Source: a virus
DNA length: 38,285 nucleotides
IMG/VR virus record: IMGVR_UViG_3300010883_000123
Location: 1-38,285 of that record
Reading direction: 5' to 3' (one strand)
Positions within the stretch are counted from its first letter, which is position 1. Every line of letters begins with the position of its first letter. The position numbers and the translations under genes are program-made. Positions 32,080 through 38,285 of this stretch are shown piece by piece. Under the pieces are notes generated by a model. It was not told the origin of the DNA, ran no database searches, and saw only the letters and a program-made list of their open reading frames with translations.

Positions 32080-32289
32080 CTAAAGATTTCTTTTGTTCTT
32101 TGCATTTTCAATACTCTCTTGTTTTTGTTCAGCTTCTTTGACCATCTTATCAACAAAAAATCTTCGTTCATAAACGGGCATACTTAAGCTGTCCTGATAG
32201 GAGAAGTTTGCGTGCTTTACTAAATAATATATTTCCTCAAGTAGTGAAAGCCTATACTCCGAAGAAAGGGCGAAAAAAGGCGACCCCAA
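32080..32289 (-). CDS. Tail-chaperone extension frame, probably translated by frameshifting
   Basis: A 69-codon frame overlaps the end of the 255-aa gene by 38 bases in the +1 frame. Its only possible independent start is TTG at 32289, with no Shine-Dalgarno. The next in-frame ATG is at residue 37, and a TGA closes the frame just upstream. The product (L-L-E-E-I-Y-Y-L-V-K-H-A-N-F-S-Y-Q-D-S, then M-P-V-Y-E-R-R-F-F-V-D-K) is a coherent helical domain, a style I associate with small phage proteins downstream of gp26-like genes. Position between tail tube and tape measure is that of the T part of G/GT tail chaperones. I infer that it is made as a fusion to the 255-aa protein; independent translation is the alternative. 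Confidence 0.65.
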   Translation of the reverse strand: MGSPFFALSSEYRLSLLEEIYYLVKHANFSYQDSLSMPVYERRFFVDKMVKEAEQKQESIENAKNKRNL

Positions 32290-33019
32290 ATGAAATGCGT
32301 GTGCTCACTTGGTTGCCTGACGGCGCTGTTACGGTTCTTTCTAAATCTAAACCTGGTTTATTTTCCTGAATGTATTTTCTTAAAGCTTGAGAGTCCTTTA
32401 TTGGCATCTGTTGTATTCTTGTAGCTATAACACCTAAGTCTTTTTCTCCTTCTATTTCCACTATATGTTTTTCTAACCTTTTAGTTATTGTTGGGACAAC
32501 TTGGACACCACTATAGTGTTTGGATAGGTCTTGTAATTCACTTTCTTCTTTACCATTTAAAAACCTAAATTTTATATTCTTATTAGATGTTGGTAACGTG
32601 TATTCAAAATTATAATCGTTATCTGGTTTTAAAACAAACTCTTTGGTTCCAACGGAAGATAAATCTACTTTGTGTTGGAATTTTGTATTGTCTTTACTGT
32701 CTACTAAGGTTATTTCGTATTCTGCTCCATACGCTGTATTTCTAAGGAACAGTAGGACAGCTTCCTTATCACATTCTAACATTTCATCCATTTTAAAGTC
32801 TGGTTCTAATATTTTTCTTCTTAGTAGTACATCTACCATTTCACCGGATTGAACTAAATTCTGAGACATAATGATATTTTCGTCTGCTGCGGTTAAGTAG
32901 GAAACTTTAATACTAGCTTTTTTATTTCTGTAGAACATCCCTTTAGATGGTAACTCAATAACATCATAAGGTACATTACTTTGTAGGTCTGCTTGTGCGT
33001 GTACGTTTGTTGGGTCCAT
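32252..33019 (-). CDS. gp26: T4 gp26-like baseplate/tail assembly chaperone protein
   Basis: This 255-aa protein fits the T4 base-plate family that includes gp26: an L-P-S-K-G-M-F-Y motif near residues 23-30, then K-V-S-Y-L-T-A-A-D-E-N and an L-L-R-R-K-I-L-E-P segment, and L-L-F-L-R-N-T-A-Y-G-A-E-Y near 110-121. The zinc-type C-P-x-C seen in some relatives is absent. It stands directly between tail tube and tape measure, where phages usually encode tail assembly chaperones that coat the tape measure. The last codons (GCC TTT TTT CGC) lie in the overlap with another frame and could be a slip site. ATG 33019 follows a candidate -10 (TATAAT) about 40 bases upstream. Confidence 0.78.
   Translation of the reverse strand: MDPTNVHAQADLQSNVPYDVIELPSKGMFYRNKKASIKVSYLTAADENIIMSQNLVQSGEMVDVLLRRKILEPDFKMDEMLECDKEAVLLFLRNTAYGAEYEITLVDSKDNTKFQHKVDLSSVGTKEFVLKPDNDYNFEYTLPTSNKNIKFRFLNGKEESELQDLSKHYSGVQVVPTITKRLEKHIVEIEGEKDLGVIATRIQQMPIKDSQALRKYIQENKPGLDLERTVTAPSGNQVSTRISFGVAFFRPFFGV
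32270..32281 (-). other. Candidate +1 (or -2) frameshift site
   Basis: Within the 38-base overlap the 255-aa frame reads GCC TTT TTT CGC. Slipping one base forward changes the last TTT to TTC, which a Phe tRNA with GAA anticodon reads better, and enters the 69-codon frame. The result would be a fusion of about 310 residues. The zero-frame TAG follows six codons later at 32254-32252. The slip site and mechanism are inference. Confidence 0.4.
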
Positions 33020-33835: not shown

Positions 33836-34486
33836 TTATATCTTAGCTTTCATAACAAATAGCTTATTAGCTTTACTGCTTTCTAAAGTGCTTTTTAATC
33901 GCTTTACTGCTTTTAAGTTTTTTATATCATCATCTAGAAATATAATTTCATCATACTCATCTAACAACATATTTATTATTTCCGCTTTCTTATCAAAATC
34001 AGCTACAGCGGCTAGTTTAGATGAAGTTACCGTATCATTAACAGCGTAAACTAAATTTCTGTCTAATCTGTCCCCTATTGGGACTAATCTACCATCTTTA
34101 CCTCTATACATTAACCACTCTCTTAAAGTCTCGTAGACAGTGTCCTCATGACCTCTGGCAGTTAATATACCAATCTGATAACCCCTATTGATTAGTTCGT
34201 CCATAACATTAAGATTTGCCACAATTGGTTCACCTTTCATAATTGAGTCCGTAACTCTTTTAGGGTCTGCGAAATCTCTATAGTCGTAATATTCTTTAGT
34301 TTCATCAGTAACTTTTTCATTACGATACTCAGCCGGTGTTAGAGCTGTCTCCTCCTCACCTGGAAATTGTTTGTAAATGTATATGTCGTCCGCTTCAACT
34401 ACAGTATCGTCCAAATCTAACAATACAAGTTTATTTACATTTGCAACTTCATTTAAAACGTATTTATTAATTTTATTTTTAATCAC
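33836..34486 (-). CDS. HAD-superfamily phosphatase with N-terminal tag
   Basis: This 216-aa protein starts at GTG 34486, 6 bases after the deoxyribosyltransferase-like gene. Residues 1-13 (M-I-K-N-K-I-N-K-Y-V-L-N-E) are a basic amphipathic peptide ending in L-N-E, like those of its five neighbours. The HAD core follows: motif I D24-L-D-D-T, motif II I-L-T-A-R near 108, a Lys in the K-A-E-I-I-N segment and motif IV F-L-D-D-D near 185. This makes an aspartate-nucleophile phosphatase likely; substrates could be nucleotides or polynucleotide 3'-phosphates (T4 Pnk-type), and the sequence does not decide. Context with deoxyribose enzymes favours a nucleotide or sugar phosphate. The 118 bases between this gene and tail tube hold no clear gene. 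Confidence 0.85.
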   Translation of the reverse strand: MIKNKINKYVLNEVANVNKLVLLDLDDTVVEADDIYIYKQFPGEEETALTPAEYRNEKVTDETKEYYDYRDFADPKRVTDSIMKGEPIVANLNVMDELINRGYQIGILTARGHEDTVYETLREWLMYRGKDGRLVPIGDRLDRNLVYAVNDTVTSSKLAAVADFDKKAEIINMLLDEYDEIIFLDDDIKNLKAVKRLKSTLESSKANKLFVMKAKI

Positions 34487-34492
34487 TAATTT

Positions 34493-35482
34493 TTATTTAA
34501 AATTTTCTAAAAAAGACCATATTTCATCGCCTACTATAATTTTAGTTATGGAAGGCATCATCCATGGAGATACGTTGGACAACTTTTTTCCGTTAGTTAA
34601 CCATACTATCACTTGTGAGTTTTTTAATGCACTGACCTGGGCCTCACCAAATGTACCAGCACCAGCAGTACCGTCGAAATTTATTAGATTAGTATCACAA
34701 ACTTTTAACATATACAAATCTTGTACCACTATTTTATCTCTTATTTTCTCTCTAAATATTTTAAATGATTCGTCATCTAGTTCATCTGATTTCCAACTCT
34801 TGAATAGTTGTTGGAACTCAACATCCTCATCTCTTACTGTTTCAGCTCTTAAAGGGTTTAGTATAGCTGGAGAATCAAGACCTTTAAAGTCCATAACACC
34901 ATCTGTAACTAATTCTAGAAGTCTTTCACCTTTAACGACATGGTCAGGACCAAAAAATTCTTCTACCTTAGTTCTCCATGAAAGTGCATCGTCCGCAAAA
35001 TCAATACCCCCACCTAAATAAATTGCTTTAGGTTTAAAAACACCACCCATATCATTAGGGTCTAAAACGTTTATTAAGTGTATTGTGTCTTTCATTTCAT
35101 CCGCACTTGCATTAATAAGAAAATCTGAAGCTTTATCTGTTAAATACCTTTTTAACCATTTTTGTATTTTAGAAAAAAAACCACCAGCTTTAAGTTCTGG
35201 TATTCCACCGTAGGAAATCTCGTTTAAATCTTCAGATTCGTCCCCATCCCTTTGTTTTGCAAAAAGAGAGTCTTCATCATAAAAATATTCCGGATTATAC
35301 CCAGGTAATTCTTTCCAATTATGTGGTTTATCCTCATCCTCGTCAGTATCGTTATTAACGTCAATCAAGTTTCTTAAAACTGTTTTTACCTCATCTCTTT
35401 TTTCTGGTGATAATGATACTATCTCATCATAAAGATTAGTCTTGTCTTCTACAAACTCTCTTATAATTCTTTTAGTGTTCAT
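34493..35482 (-). CDS. Nucleoside 2-deoxyribosyltransferase-like protein with tagged N-terminal extension
   Basis: This 329-aa protein starts immediately after deoC (stop 35483-35485, ATG 35482). Residues 1-9 (M-N-T-K-R-I-I-R-E) are the tag. Residues 10-150 are an acidic linker with a second amphipathic helix (F-F-S-K-I-Q-K-W-L-K-R-Y-L near 102-114). From about 150 the deoxyribosyltransferase fold appears: A-I-Y-L-G-G-G-I-D-F with W169 nearby, then V-V-Q-D-L-Y-M-L-K-V-C-D, and N-F-D-G-T-A-G-A-G-T-F-G-E-A-Q near 270-285 carrying the expected catalytic Glu. The family moves deoxyribose between bases or hydrolyses nucleotide N-glycosidic bonds. With deoC and class II RNR it may serve base salvage; nucleotide or NAD hydrolysis against the host or as counter-defence are alternatives. 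Confidence 0.75.
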   Translation of the reverse strand: MNTKRIIREFVEDKTNLYDEIVSLSPEKRDEVKTVLRNLIDVNNDTDEDEDKPHNWKELPGYNPEYFYDEDSLFAKQRDGDESEDLNEISYGGIPELKAGGFFSKIQKWLKRYLTDKASDFLINASADEMKDTIHLINVLDPNDMGGVFKPKAIYLGGGIDFADDALSWRTKVEEFFGPDHVVKGERLLELVTDGVMDFKGLDSPAILNPLRAETVRDEDVEFQQLFKSWKSDELDDESFKIFREKIRDKIVVQDLYMLKVCDTNLINFDGTAGAGTFGEAQVSALKNSQVIVWLTNGKKLSNVSPWMMPSITKIIVGDEIWSFLENFK

Positions 35483-36289
35483 TTAATAATCTGTTTTTTC
35501 TATTTTATTACCTTGCATTATATCTTTTGCTGCGGATGTACCCAACCTGGTAGCTCCAGCACTAATCATTTTTTCCGCATCTTCAACACTATAAATACCA
35601 CCAGATGCTTTAACTTGTAAAGGACCAGAATTTGATTTCATAATACTGACAGCTTCAGGTGTTGCTCCAACAGGGCCACCATCTGAAGATTTGTAAAAAC
35701 CTGTCGATGTTTTAACGAAAACATTTTTAGCACTTTCTTCTCCCACTGTCTCTATAACTATTTTACTAATTAAACTTGTTAGTTCCGAAATCTCTTCATT
35801 ATTTAAAGCTGCTGACTCTATAATCCACTTAACCGACTTACCTTCATCTACCCCTATAGCCGTTCCTTCACTAACCTCTTTCATAACTTTATCTAAGTCA
35901 CCATTTTTAAAAGCTTTATAATCCACTACAAAATCTAATTCATCTACACCATTTTGTATAGCCCGTAAAGCTTCGTCCATTTTTTCTCCGTGACTATTAT
36001 CTCCGTTTGGGAATCCTATTACAGTACCGACTAATACGTTGGCTCCTTTACTATCTATAAATTGTCTTGCTGTATCAACATACTCAGGTCTTAACATAAC
36101 TAACTTCATATTATGTTCTATAGCGTCTTGTATCGTATTAAAAACAATAGTGTCTGTTTCTTCTTCTCCTATACCAGCTTGTTCTGGTGTTTTTAAATAT
36201 GTAGAATCTAAATACGAGGCTAGATTAGTGTCAACTTGTTCCCTTATTAACATTAAATCTTTAATTCTTTTTATTTGTTCGTTTATCAT
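35483..36289 (-). CDS. deoC: Deoxyribose-phosphate aldolase with N-terminal tag
   Basis: This 268-aa class I aldolase would split 2-deoxyribose-5-phosphate into glyceraldehyde-3-phosphate and acetaldehyde, or run in reverse. Catalytic residues are in place: D119 in E-L-D-F-V-V-D, the Schiff-base lysine K193 in F-V-K-T-S-T-G-F, and K227 in V-K-A-S-G-G-I. G-A-T-R-L-G-T-S-A close to 246-254 completes the phosphate site. It is slightly longer than the E. coli enzyme (259 aa) because of a 20-residue N-terminal peptide (M-I-N-E-Q-I-K-R-I-K-D-L-M-L-I-R-E) that ends in I-R-E. It heads a three-gene operon reading away from the divergent promoter palindrome at 36.3 kb. Confidence 0.93.
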   Translation of the reverse strand: MINEQIKRIKDLMLIREQVDTNLASYLDSTYLKTPEQAGIGEEETDTIVFNTIQDAIEHNMKLVMLRPEYVDTARQFIDSKGANVLVGTVIGFPNGDNSHGEKMDEALRAIQNGVDELDFVVDYKAFKNGDLDKVMKEVSEGTAIGVDEGKSVKWIIESAALNNEEISELTSLISKIVIETVGEESAKNVFVKTSTGFYKSSDGGPVGATPEAVSIMKSNSGPLQVKASGGIYSVEDAEKMISAGATRLGTSAAKDIMQGNKIEKTDY

Positions 36290-36305
36290 ACGGTAATTGT
36301 TTAGT

Positions 36306-36321
36306 TATAAATATATTTATA
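36306..36321. promoter_or_regulatory. Divergent late-promoter palindrome (two TATAAATA boxes)
   Basis: The 36-base gap between deoC and the 142-aa gene contains TATAAATATATTTATA, a perfect 16-bp palindrome. Each strand carries TATAAATA, the exact T4 late promoter -10 box read by gp55-type sigma. Rightward transcription would start a few bases before ATG 36326 (leader near zero to 6 nt); leftward would leave a leader of about 18 nt before ATG 36289. Known T4 late promoters need no -35. Function here is inferred. Confidence 0.6.
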
Positions 36322-36325
36322 TTAT

Positions 36326-36754
36326 ATGAAAAATATCATTAAAAGAATAATTAGGGAAGAAGTGGGAATTATCCAAGAAAAGGAATCAAATCCTTGTTGG
36401 GATAAGTACGAGATGATTGGTATGAAGACAAAGAATGGTAAGGAGGTTCCTAACTGTGTTCCAATAGAAGAAGATGTTCTACAAGAAGCGGAGTACCAAG
36501 GTAGAAAAGTGACTCTCAATAAACCAACAAGAGGTGATGTTAAAAAATCCAAAGTATATGTTAAGAATGACAAGGGCAATGTTGTTAAAGTTAATTTTGG
36601 ACACGGTGGGACATCCGCTAAAAAGAGGGGTGAGAAGACCATGAGTATAAAAAAGAATAATCCTGAAAGAAGAAAGTCATTTAGAGCAAGACATAATTGT
36701 GATAATCCAGGACCAAAATGGAAAGCTAGATATTGGAGTTGTAAAGCATGGTAA
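36326..36754 (+). CDS. Tagged small protein with two Cys motifs
   Basis: This 142-aa protein opens the rightward operon. Residues 1-11 are M-K-N-I-I-K-R-I-I-R-E, the clearest copy of the shared N-terminal tag. Residues about 22-46 (N-P-C-W-D-K-Y-E-M-I-G-M-K, then K-E-V-P-N-C-V-P) and the C-terminal 32 residues (N-P-E-R-R-K-S-F-R-A-R-H-N-C-D, then A-R-Y-W-S-C-K-A-W) are two short patterns I recall from marine T4-like phage proteins, without a known function. Four Cys and one His in these motifs could bind zinc. The central 50 residues are Lys-rich with a beta look (V-Y-V-K-N-D-K-G-N-V-V-K-V). Stop TAA overlaps the SOD ATG (TAATG). Confidence 0.78.
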   Translation: MKNIIKRIIREEVGIIQEKESNPCWDKYEMIGMKTKNGKEVPNCVPIEEDVLQEAEYQGRKVTLNKPTRGDVKKSKVYVKNDKGNVVKVNFGHGGTSAKKRGEKTMSIKKNNPERRKSFRARHNCDNPGPKWKARYWSCKAW

Positions 36755-37407
36755 TGAAAAATTTAATTAAGAAAATATTAAGAGAAAATTTGTTAACTGA
36801 AGTTAAGAAGACATTCTTTAGGAGAATAACTTTACCTTATGATTACAAATCTATGAAAGATTTTGTGGGTTACGAAACAATGTGGGAACACTATAATAAA
36901 CACTACAAAGGTTATACGACCAAACTAAACGAATCCCTATCAAAAAGAAAAAACCCCCCTAAAGACATCGAAAAAATTATTAGGGGAATTAAAAACTACG
37001 ATACCTTTACGAGAAATAACGCTGGTGGTTACTATAATCACAGTTTATTTTTTAAAGATTATATAACACCAGATAAGACGGAACTATCTAAAGACCTAAA
37101 AATTAAAATAAATAAGGATTTTGGTAGTTTGGATAATTTTAAGAGGCAGTTTGATGAGGAGTCTGGAAAGGTTTTTGGTTCTGGTTGGTGTTGGTTAGTA
37201 TTGAAAAATAAAAGACTTAGTATAGTGTCAACTCCAAACCAAGATAATCCGTTAATGGATAATTTAGGTGAACCCTTATTAGGTTTGGATGTTTGGGAGC
37301 ACGCTTATTATTTAAATTATATGGCTGACAGAAAAAAATACATCACTAATTTCTGGAAGGTTGTTAACTGGGAAAGTGTTTCAAAAAAATATGAAGAACT
37401 TAATTAA
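36754..37407 (+). CDS. sod: Fe/Mn superoxide dismutase with N-terminal tag
   Basis: This 217-aa enzyme would convert superoxide to oxygen and hydrogen peroxide. All metal ligands are in place with start ATG 36754: H46 in M-W-E-H-Y-N-K-H-Y-K-G-Y, H96 in Y-Y-N-H-S-L-F-F, D179 and H183 in L-D-V-W-E-H-A-Y-Y. The substrate-gate Tyr (K-G-Y) is present, and G-S-G-W-C-W-L-V matches the core. I chose the second ATG (36754) rather than 36748 because it overlaps the upstream TAA as TAATG and gives the same tag as its neighbours, M-K-N-L-I-K-K-I-L-R-E. Bacterial Fe-SODs are about 193 aa, so the tag and linker (about 20 aa) are additional. Fe versus Mn cannot be settled from sequence. Confidence 0.93.
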   Translation: MKNLIKKILRENLLTEVKKTFFRRITLPYDYKSMKDFVGYETMWEHYNKHYKGYTTKLNESLSKRKNPPKDIEKIIRGIKNYDTFTRNNAGGYYNHSLFFKDYITPDKTELSKDLKIKINKDFGSLDNFKRQFDEESGKVFGSGWCWLVLKNKRLSIVSTPNQDNPLMDNLGEPLLGLDVWEHAYYLNYMADRKKYITNFWKVVNWESVSKKYEELN

Positions 37408-38044
37408 GGACATAATAAAAGAAGAATTATTGTTAGAAGAGAAAGTTATTAATTTCGACACACCTAATAATAACTTTGTTGTGGTAACTGGAGGACCTGG
37501 TGCTGGAAAAAGCTTTATAACAAGAAACTTAATTAATTTAAATAATGTTAAAGAATTTAATGTTGACCAGGTAAGGGTAATGACAGCAAAAAAATTGTGG
37601 GGTGATGAGTGGGAAAAAAACATATCTACAGAAGAAGGATATCAAGAAATACTAAATAAGACATACACAACCTCAGACCCAAGAAACCTAACAGTAAGAT
37701 TTCTTAAACAATTTTTACAACAAGAAAGAAATGAAGGGGTTAATGTTATTTATGATGCTGGTGGTGGACAGAAAGAAGTTATGGAGGATGTGTGGAGACT
37801 GGCTAAAGACTCTGGATTTAACACCACATTAATATATGTACGTACACCTTTAGAACTTGCTAAAATAAGAAACAACGAAAGACCTAGAAGTTTACCGGAC
37901 GATATGGTAGCTCAATACCACCAAAAAGTTAAAGATAACATGAGAAACATGTTTCAAATTTTTGATAATGTGTGGACTGTGGACAACAAGGAATTGATAG
38001 ACCTATCTGATAGACCTTCTGACAATATAGAAAAGATAAAATAA
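37391..38044 (+). CDS. P-loop kinase (AAA_33/zeta-toxin-like) with N-terminal tag
   Basis: This 217-aa protein has Walker A V-V-V-T-G-G-P-G-A-G-K40-S41 after a 30-residue N-terminal segment. Then come F-N-V-D-Q-V-R, where an acidic residue often positions substrate, V-I-Y-D-A-G-G-G, and a lid-like R-T-P-L-E-L-A-K-I-R-N-N-E-R-P-R. The layout fits small-molecule or polynucleotide kinases and zeta-type UDP-sugar kinases. Start ATG 37391 overlaps the SOD end by 17 bases and gives M-K-N-L-I-K-D-I-I-K-E-E, the shared tag; an upstream ATG at 37361 lacks this fit. The substrate is unknown; if paired with the HAD protein, a polynucleotide or nucleotide kinase-phosphatase function is possible. Ends 3 bases from a convergent gene. 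Confidence 0.82.
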   Translation: MKNLIKDIIKEELLLEEKVINFDTPNNNFVVVTGGPGAGKSFITRNLINLNNVKEFNVDQVRVMTAKKLWGDEWEKNISTEEGYQEILNKTYTTSDPRNLTVRFLKQFLQQERNEGVNVIYDAGGGQKEVMEDVWRLAKDSGFNTTLIYVRTPLELAKIRNNERPRSLPDDMVAQYHQKVKDNMRNMFQIFDNVWTVDNKELIDLSDRPSDNIEKIK

Positions 38045-38047
38045 AAA

Positions 38048-38285
38048 CTATATGGTTTTAATAACCTCTAATTTTATGTTGGGGTGGTCTTTCATAGTCT
38101 CCATTACCGATTCGATATGTTTGTCTTTATCTTCCCAGAACTTTATAGATGTACATTTAGGATATTTTTCTATAATTTGTCTTACTCGATTTCCCTTACT
38201 GCGGTCCCCGTCACTTATTAAATAATAATCTTCAAATAAGTAACCTAATTTAGATAGTAGTGAAGTTAAAGGTTTTTTAACTTCA
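38048..38285 (-). CDS. C-terminal part of a HAD-like protein (5' end outside window)
   Basis: A minus-strand frame of 78 codons enters from the right edge and ends at TAG 38050-38048. The visible part reads I-S-D-G-D-R-S-K-G-N-R-V, helices, then F-W-E-D-K-D-K-H-I-E-S-V and K-L-E-V-I-K-T-I. The pattern F-W-E-D-K-x-x-H-I resembles the last motif of HAD domains from RNA-repair (Swiss Army Knife-type) proteins, where acidic residues bind Mg. No start or full domain can be judged. It converges with the kinase gene with only 3 bases between them. Confidence 0.6.
   Translation of the reverse strand, partial: EVKKPLTSLLSKLGYLFEDYYLISDGDRSKGNRVRQIIEKYPKCTSIKFWEDKDKHIESVMETMKDHPNIKLEVIKTI

Follow-up and report, generated by a model that had tools for sequence, protein, structure and literature searches.

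Why should a run of unrelated enzymes in a phage genome begin with the same kind of short peptide? The question is raised by a 38,285-bp viral DNA, the whole of IMG/VR record IMGVR_UViG_3300010883_000123 (hereafter the window). It is a fragment of a marine phage genome that carries tail, baseplate and replication genes and no recognised head genes. Near one end, six genes encode proteins that all start with a basic peptide, or tag, closing on the motif (I/L)-x-E. We propose that this shared N-terminus is very likely a removable propeptide for targeting to the prohead, a functional analogue of the capsid-targeting sequence (CTS) of phage T4, and that the enzymes behind it are head cargo, probably injected. 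The six genes are listed below, ↓ marking the predicted junction.

33836..34486, minus strand: HAD-family phosphatase (DxDxT), start codon GTG; motifs and PHROG 415 ‘polynucleotide kinase’ (4e-11); tag MIKNKINKYVLNE↓V at 34486-34448, junction Glu at residue 13.
34493..35482, minus strand: nucleoside 2-deoxyribosyltransferase-like (NDT-like) protein, weakly assigned (PF15891, E=0.046); tag MNTKRIIRE↓F at 35482-35456, Glu 9.
35483..36289, minus strand: deoxyribose-phosphate aldolase DeoC (NCBIfam TIGR00126, E=1e-42); class-2 tag MINEQIKRIKDLMLIRE↓Q at 36289-36239, Glu 17.
36326..36754, plus strand: Cys-motif protein with motif RHNCDNPGPKWKARYWSCKAW, matching PHROGs of unknown function only; class-1 tag MKNIIKRIIRE↓E at 36326-36358, Glu 11; second site IIQE↓K.
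36754..37407, plus strand: Fe/Mn superoxide dismutase (SOD; Pfam Sod_Fe_C, 7.6e-40), start more likely ATG 36754 than 36748; class-1 tag MKNLIKKILRE↓N at 36754-36786, Glu 11; second site LLTE↓V ending at 36801.
37391..38044, plus strand: P-loop kinase, polynucleotide-kinase-like (AAA_33, 9e-13), start ATG 37391 and not TTG 37361; class-1 tag MKNLIKDIIKE↓E at 37391-37423, Glu 11; second site LLLE↓E.

A first-pass annotation of the window had named these families and described the common N-terminus. The labels are certain for SOD, DeoC and the kinase and stand for the HAD protein by its motifs and PHROG match, while that of the deoxyribosyltransferase is weak. The net-basic peptide ending in (I/L)-x-E was confirmed in six out of six: a simple criterion, (I/L)-x-E ending at residue 8-18 with a net charge of at least +1 before the motif, selected 6/6 cluster genes and 0/20 other window genes. 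As the annotation had stated, no replication, tube or baseplate gene starts in this way. The associated probability (Fisher p=4e-6) is post hoc, because the motif had been chosen by the earlier reader on this same window. Four near-identical M-K-N-x-I-K starts had also been reported; we find the strict form in three. In the SOD, the kinase and the Cys-motif protein, the additional (I/L)-x-E lies a few residues beyond the first.

We then compared orthologues of the six proteins, and observed that those of the SOD, the kinase and the Cys-motif protein exchange one class of tag for another. Despite replacement of the N-terminus, an (I/L)-x-E-type junction ahead of the enzyme domain was kept in nearly all copies; it could not be judged in distant Cys-motif relatives. 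The window SOD, MKNLIKKILRENLLTE↓V, carries a class 1 peptide whereas that of relative G038, MKIRITESQYNLILE↓G, carries class 3 (domain identity 72%), and both place exactly ten residues between the Glu and the LPY core. Among nine SODs with three kinds of N-terminus, E16 is the only invariant residue before that core. Likewise, E9 is the only residue after M1 that is invariant within the first 18 of the NDT-like orthologues. The HAD orthologues keep VLNE, ILKE, LSE or ISE at the junction, and DeoC keeps a hydrophobic-x-E before the domain in all relatives. Cys-motif orthologues bear class-1 or class-3 tags, and in G031 the kinase orthologue opens with a class-3 peptide that closes on ILMTE↓A. 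The DeoC orthologue of the same genome (26690-27790) begins with a long unrelated stretch, yet TLKE↓Q stands ahead of the aldolase domain. Hidden Markov model matches to the SOD and DeoC domains start after the tag (for DeoC, from about residue 30). In an AlphaFold model of the SOD the tag forms a separate helix of low confidence, residues 6-23 being the only segment with pLDDT below 50; the NDT-like model (mean pLDDT 37.5) was uninformative.

Two variants of the arrangement were seen. The kinase orthologue of G035 lies inside a 1787-aa open reading frame (ORF; 45839-51202), preceded by ERLLRE↓EKVVGF, and could be released from the larger protein by cleavage. Among the best 80 of 576 phage SOD loci confirmed in IMG/VR, most encode proteins of about 510 aa (L237-L300), in which a conserved L(L/I)(T/N)E leads into an SOD placed close to the N-terminus, followed by a C-terminal part of unknown kind.

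How far do such peptides spread? A degenerate DNA pattern for MKN(L/I)I(K/R)(K/R)IL(K/R)E recovered 119 stretches in viral contigs, in which the class-1 peptide (commonly 11 residues long, positions 4, 5, 8 and 9 being hydrophobic) opens many unrelated proteins, often several on one contig. A narrower pattern gave 26 stretches in IMG/VR and a permuted decoy 0. Scanning 84,980 bacterial and archaeal genomes yielded one match, a 63,985-bp phage contig within a Prochlorococcus single-cell genome (G016, QCKH01000009.1), equal in length to one of the IMG/VR virus contigs (that of L044); it carries many tags and may reflect either a host link or a co-sorted virus. Further classes recur: MKKxIxEIKRxxxLMGxxxE (class 2, on the window DeoC), MKIxLTESQxxxLIxxxxxE (class 3, in relatives) and, in Flavobacterium phage immuto, MENFDLKKFLVENKLTxNSxLLxE. 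In this cultured relative (NC_055915), tagged proteins start at 1803, 25061, 102294, 102880, 103806, 111675, 117631 and 118632, and gp21 is KNV73_gp070. Across 17 relatives, class patterns, which are regular expressions written after inspection of the data, marked 223/2068 accessory genes and 0/124 core orthologues, tail and baseplate proteins included, against 1/203 genes in Cellulophaga control phages without a T4-type head. The first-pass annotation had held that a tag found at random on many proteins would speak against its idea; we find it restricted to accessory proteins.

Independently of these expressions, we asked whether the N-terminal 24 residues of a protein resemble those of a non-homologous gene, relative to internal and shuffled segments (threshold 33, raised once to 36). 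Most long T4-type genomes were far above expectation: 74/197 genes in G021 versus 8.1 for internal and 10.3 for shuffled segments, and 27/66 in G029 versus 1.0 and 1.6. Three Cellulophaga phages that are not T4-type gave 2 or 3 genes, and the window with its nearest short relatives 3/25, 0/57 and 3/64, which are small samples. A chance likeness among Lys/Ile/Glu-rich N-termini could be imagined in a genome of such low GC (34%), the more so as the simple criterion has a background of 5-10%. Since the shuffled, internal-segment, permuted-decoy and control-phage tests all contradict it, we rejected this explanation, whose probability we regard as negligible.

Three other resemblances were set aside. 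N-termini that recur in phi4:1 and phi38:1, and on part of the immuto proteins, resemble signal peptides or modules of tail fibres and not the tags. An N-terminal motif of RaK2, considered as a parallel, also occurs on tail-spike proteins, with a presumed role in binding to the baseplate. A secretion signal was also discarded: judged by eye, the tags are amphipathic with a charge every 3-4 positions and have neither a signal-peptidase site nor a hydrophobic core at least 7 residues long.

Could the DNA, rather than the peptide, be what is shared? Recombination might have spread a mobile 5′ cassette that spans the promoter, the leader and the first codons, the peptide itself being without function; this would fit the near-identity of some tags within one genome and the diversity at codons 7-9 of class-1 tags, which is lower than background. 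However, in a set of 96 non-identical class-1 proteins, copies of the same peptide are encoded with a mean of 1.5-3.4 synonymous differences per 33 nt, and on a given enzyme one class may stand in for another, unlike one without loss of the cleavage Glu. A purely DNA-level cassette was therefore rejected as highly improbable. The constraint acts on the peptide; because codons 7-9 are less diverse, some DNA copying is likely too.

The T4 CTS offers a model for such a peptide. Ten N-terminal residues are enough; those at 4 and 7 act in targeting and those at 8 and 10 in processing, and the prohead protease gp21 cleaves after L/I-x-E. The idea that T4-like phages could use CTSs to load diverse proteins has been put forward before (PMC9026906). 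In both systems a short peptide opens proteins that are unrelated to one another and lie outside the core set (in T4, IPI-III and the Alt propeptide), and the window tags end in the gp21 motif. The head machinery is also shared, since relatives of the window encode a gp21-type protease (Peptidase_S77), a gp22-type scaffold and a gp23-type major capsid protein (MCP). Peptidase_S77 was detected in 13/30 tag-bearing records, many of them fragments, and in 12/18 further records, most with SOD relatives; the absence of a prohead protease, which the annotation had named as a second ground for abandoning its idea, is thus not what the relatives display. In the 137-kb contig G034, orthologues of all six genes form one cluster (39950-44390), and protease, scaffold and T4-type MCP lie at 102-107 kb of the same contig. 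A 15.6-kb contig, G036, encodes gp21, gp22 and MCP, and its source metagenome also yielded a contig identical to the window in DeoC and SOD; plausibly G036 belongs to the same phage as the window.

The capsid propeptides of these relatives carry the same cleavage motif. They end LINE↓A, LLNE↓A or S, LISE↓T and IVSE↓A, mostly L-I/L-N/S-E, and align with the cut site of T4 gp23 (FLTE↓A); the corresponding ending in cyanophage S-CREM2 is LLTE↓A. The tags of the window group differ from the T4 CTS in being more basic, in falling into several interchangeable classes, in their cargo of metabolic and repair enzymes, and in number, a single genome having as many as dozens of tagged genes. The likeness to T4 that the first-pass annotation had drawn thus holds for the position and the (I/L)-x-E ending, and fails for Tyr4 and Phe7; because these two are absent, we class the tag as a functional analogue and not as a T4 CTS by sequence. 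A more remote parallel, compared by published descriptions and not by sequence, is the phiKZ-like giant phage SPN3US, where a prohead protease likewise frees internal proteins that enter the host, although protease and cargo are different ones, the former diverged.

Published proteomes of other T4-like phages bear on packaging. In S-CREM2 (PMC10665884), 52 of 219 proteins are virion proteins, and 5/6 proteins with strict CTS-like N-termini are among them (p=0.003), as are 7/8 by a looser pattern (p=2e-4). The CTS-like virion proteins there comprise a SAM hydrolase, an APH-like kinase, a cytidylyltransferase, a Cas9-like nuclease and two unknowns; the sections read of the published report mention no targeting peptide for them. 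Cyanophage S-SCSM1 was picked as a follow-up before its N-termini were viewed. Its NMNAT starts MKSFLQFLKEA, the sole match among 65 coding sequences examined, and is a virion protein (PMC9602691); lysins and structural proteins apart, no other virion enzyme is named for this phage. In S-SCSM1 and S-CREM2, the virion-detected non-structural enzymes, lysins excepted, begin with a T4-CTS-like peptide. As in the window group, the peptide, here of (F/L)-x-E type, stands at the N-terminus of accessory enzymes in a T4-like phage; unlike the window tags, the cyanophage peptides fit the T4 spacing (MKxFxxFLxE) and have, or nearly have, the targeting residues at 4 and 7. These proteomes support the view that CTS-like N-termini go with virion presence.

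A domain of PSAYASG type occurs both in orthologues of the window Cys-motif protein and in a protein of the S-CREM2 virion, ORF160 (OR473000, 128342-129235), and is lost in the window copy. ORF160 is the only protein of S-CREM2 with a CYHKVKARYDVWPSAYASG motif; the motif turns up again in Cys-rich proteins encoded by relatives of the window.

The tags might instead direct proteins elsewhere, to the inner membrane, the tail tube or baseplate, or an infection compartment, (I/L)-x-E being part of a helix and no cleavage site. Basic amphipathic helices also bind membranes, and a few tagged proteins elsewhere are peptidoglycan hydrolases or LysM proteins. But the junction Glu is kept across unrelated tag classes and matches the capsid propeptide of the same genomes, the 124 core orthologues are untagged, and in the cyanophages CTS-like tags accompany virion presence. 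We consider such another destination unlikely.

Several points nevertheless weigh against prohead targeting. The motif (I/L)-x-E is short and common, and the simple criterion also selects 5-8% of control-phage genes. T4 targets through Tyr4 and Phe7 of MKTYQEFIAE, and the window tags have no aromatic residue at either position. The 38-kb fragment has no head genes, and the protease of the window phage is deduced from relatives. Some Peptidase_S77-positive genomes have few tags, the first 50 kb of Mel-JY01 having none by class patterns. As to the proteomes, the looser S-CREM2 pattern, one of whose seven virion matches is a baseplate protein, was fitted after the N-termini had been viewed, S-SCSM1 taken alone is a single match (p=0.24), and the S-CREM2 authors consider that the enzymes may be either encapsulated or carry-over contamination (PMC10665884). 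We sought in the literature a virion proteome for this phage or any phage with the MKN(L/I)IKKIL(R/K)E class and found none, nor did we find proteome papers on immuto or Mel-JY01. Support for packaging of the tagged enzymes is therefore good but indirect.

With prohead targeting as the preferred reading, the following course can be proposed. During prohead assembly, the basic amphipathic helix would bring the enzyme into the scaffold core, where the gp21-type S77 protease that matures the capsid would cut the tag after (I/L)-x-E. The freed, folded enzyme would remain in the head with the DNA and probably be injected at infection. Since tag classes are interchangeable on one enzyme, an accessory protein may become head cargo on gaining a tag. 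For the six window proteins, we infer cleavage, packaging, injection and a role early in infection.

Alternatively, the enzymes may be packaged and cut yet remain passive, or act only in the head or late in the producing cell, without being injected as effectors. This too seems improbable to us: T4 ejects many of its internal proteins as well as Alt, IPI guards the DNA once it has been injected (PMC9026906, PMC3012670), and the catalytic motifs of SOD, DeoC, HAD protein and kinase are apparently intact on inspection by eye.

From their families, we would guess that the SOD acts against superoxide and that DeoC and the NDT-like protein serve deoxyribose salvage, whereas the HAD protein and the kinase may be a split nucleic acid repair pair of polynucleotide-kinase type; detoxification and counter-defence are likewise presumed roles. 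Both members of the latter pair match polynucleotide-kinase PHROGs (415 and 505), and a cut ORF (38048-38284) resembles HAD_SAK_1 of RNA-repair proteins; the three together could be a split Pnkp-like repair set. Elsewhere in the window, a small minus-strand ORF (32080-32289) overlaps, in a different reading frame, the baseplate hub gene (32252-33019) at its 3′ end, and is possibly a frameshift extension or a chaperone. A search for isolate relatives of the 1673-aa window protein found none.

The host group is probably Bacteroidota. It is suggested by the nearest isolates and by the scarcity of Shine-Dalgarno motifs, present at 2-9% of genes, a share like that in phages of Flavobacterium and Cellulophaga, whereas S-CREM2 has 22%; the tagged contig from the Prochlorococcus single-cell genome runs counter to it.

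Taken at its widest, the pattern makes it reasonably likely that a large marine and freshwater group of T4-like phages, probably infecting Bacteroidota, uses a general code for cargo loading. At least four unlike classes of tag, cut by the prohead protease and freely exchanged, would send about a tenth of the accessory proteome, including SOD, DeoC and repair-like enzymes, into the head for delivery ready-made. What this analysis adds is a set of unlike tags that can replace one another, the scale on which they occur and the enzymes they have as cargo. If true, head-loading peptides extend beyond those of T4, and the puzzling enzymes of published cyanophage virion proteomes would be accounted for. 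The occurrence of several classes with a shared scaffold raises the question of how one scaffold reads unlike peptides. The first residues of an accessory protein would then reveal that it is carried into the cell, so that many genes now labelled ‘hypothetical’ could be assigned to a functional class and effectors that act early, possibly against host defences, could be listed.

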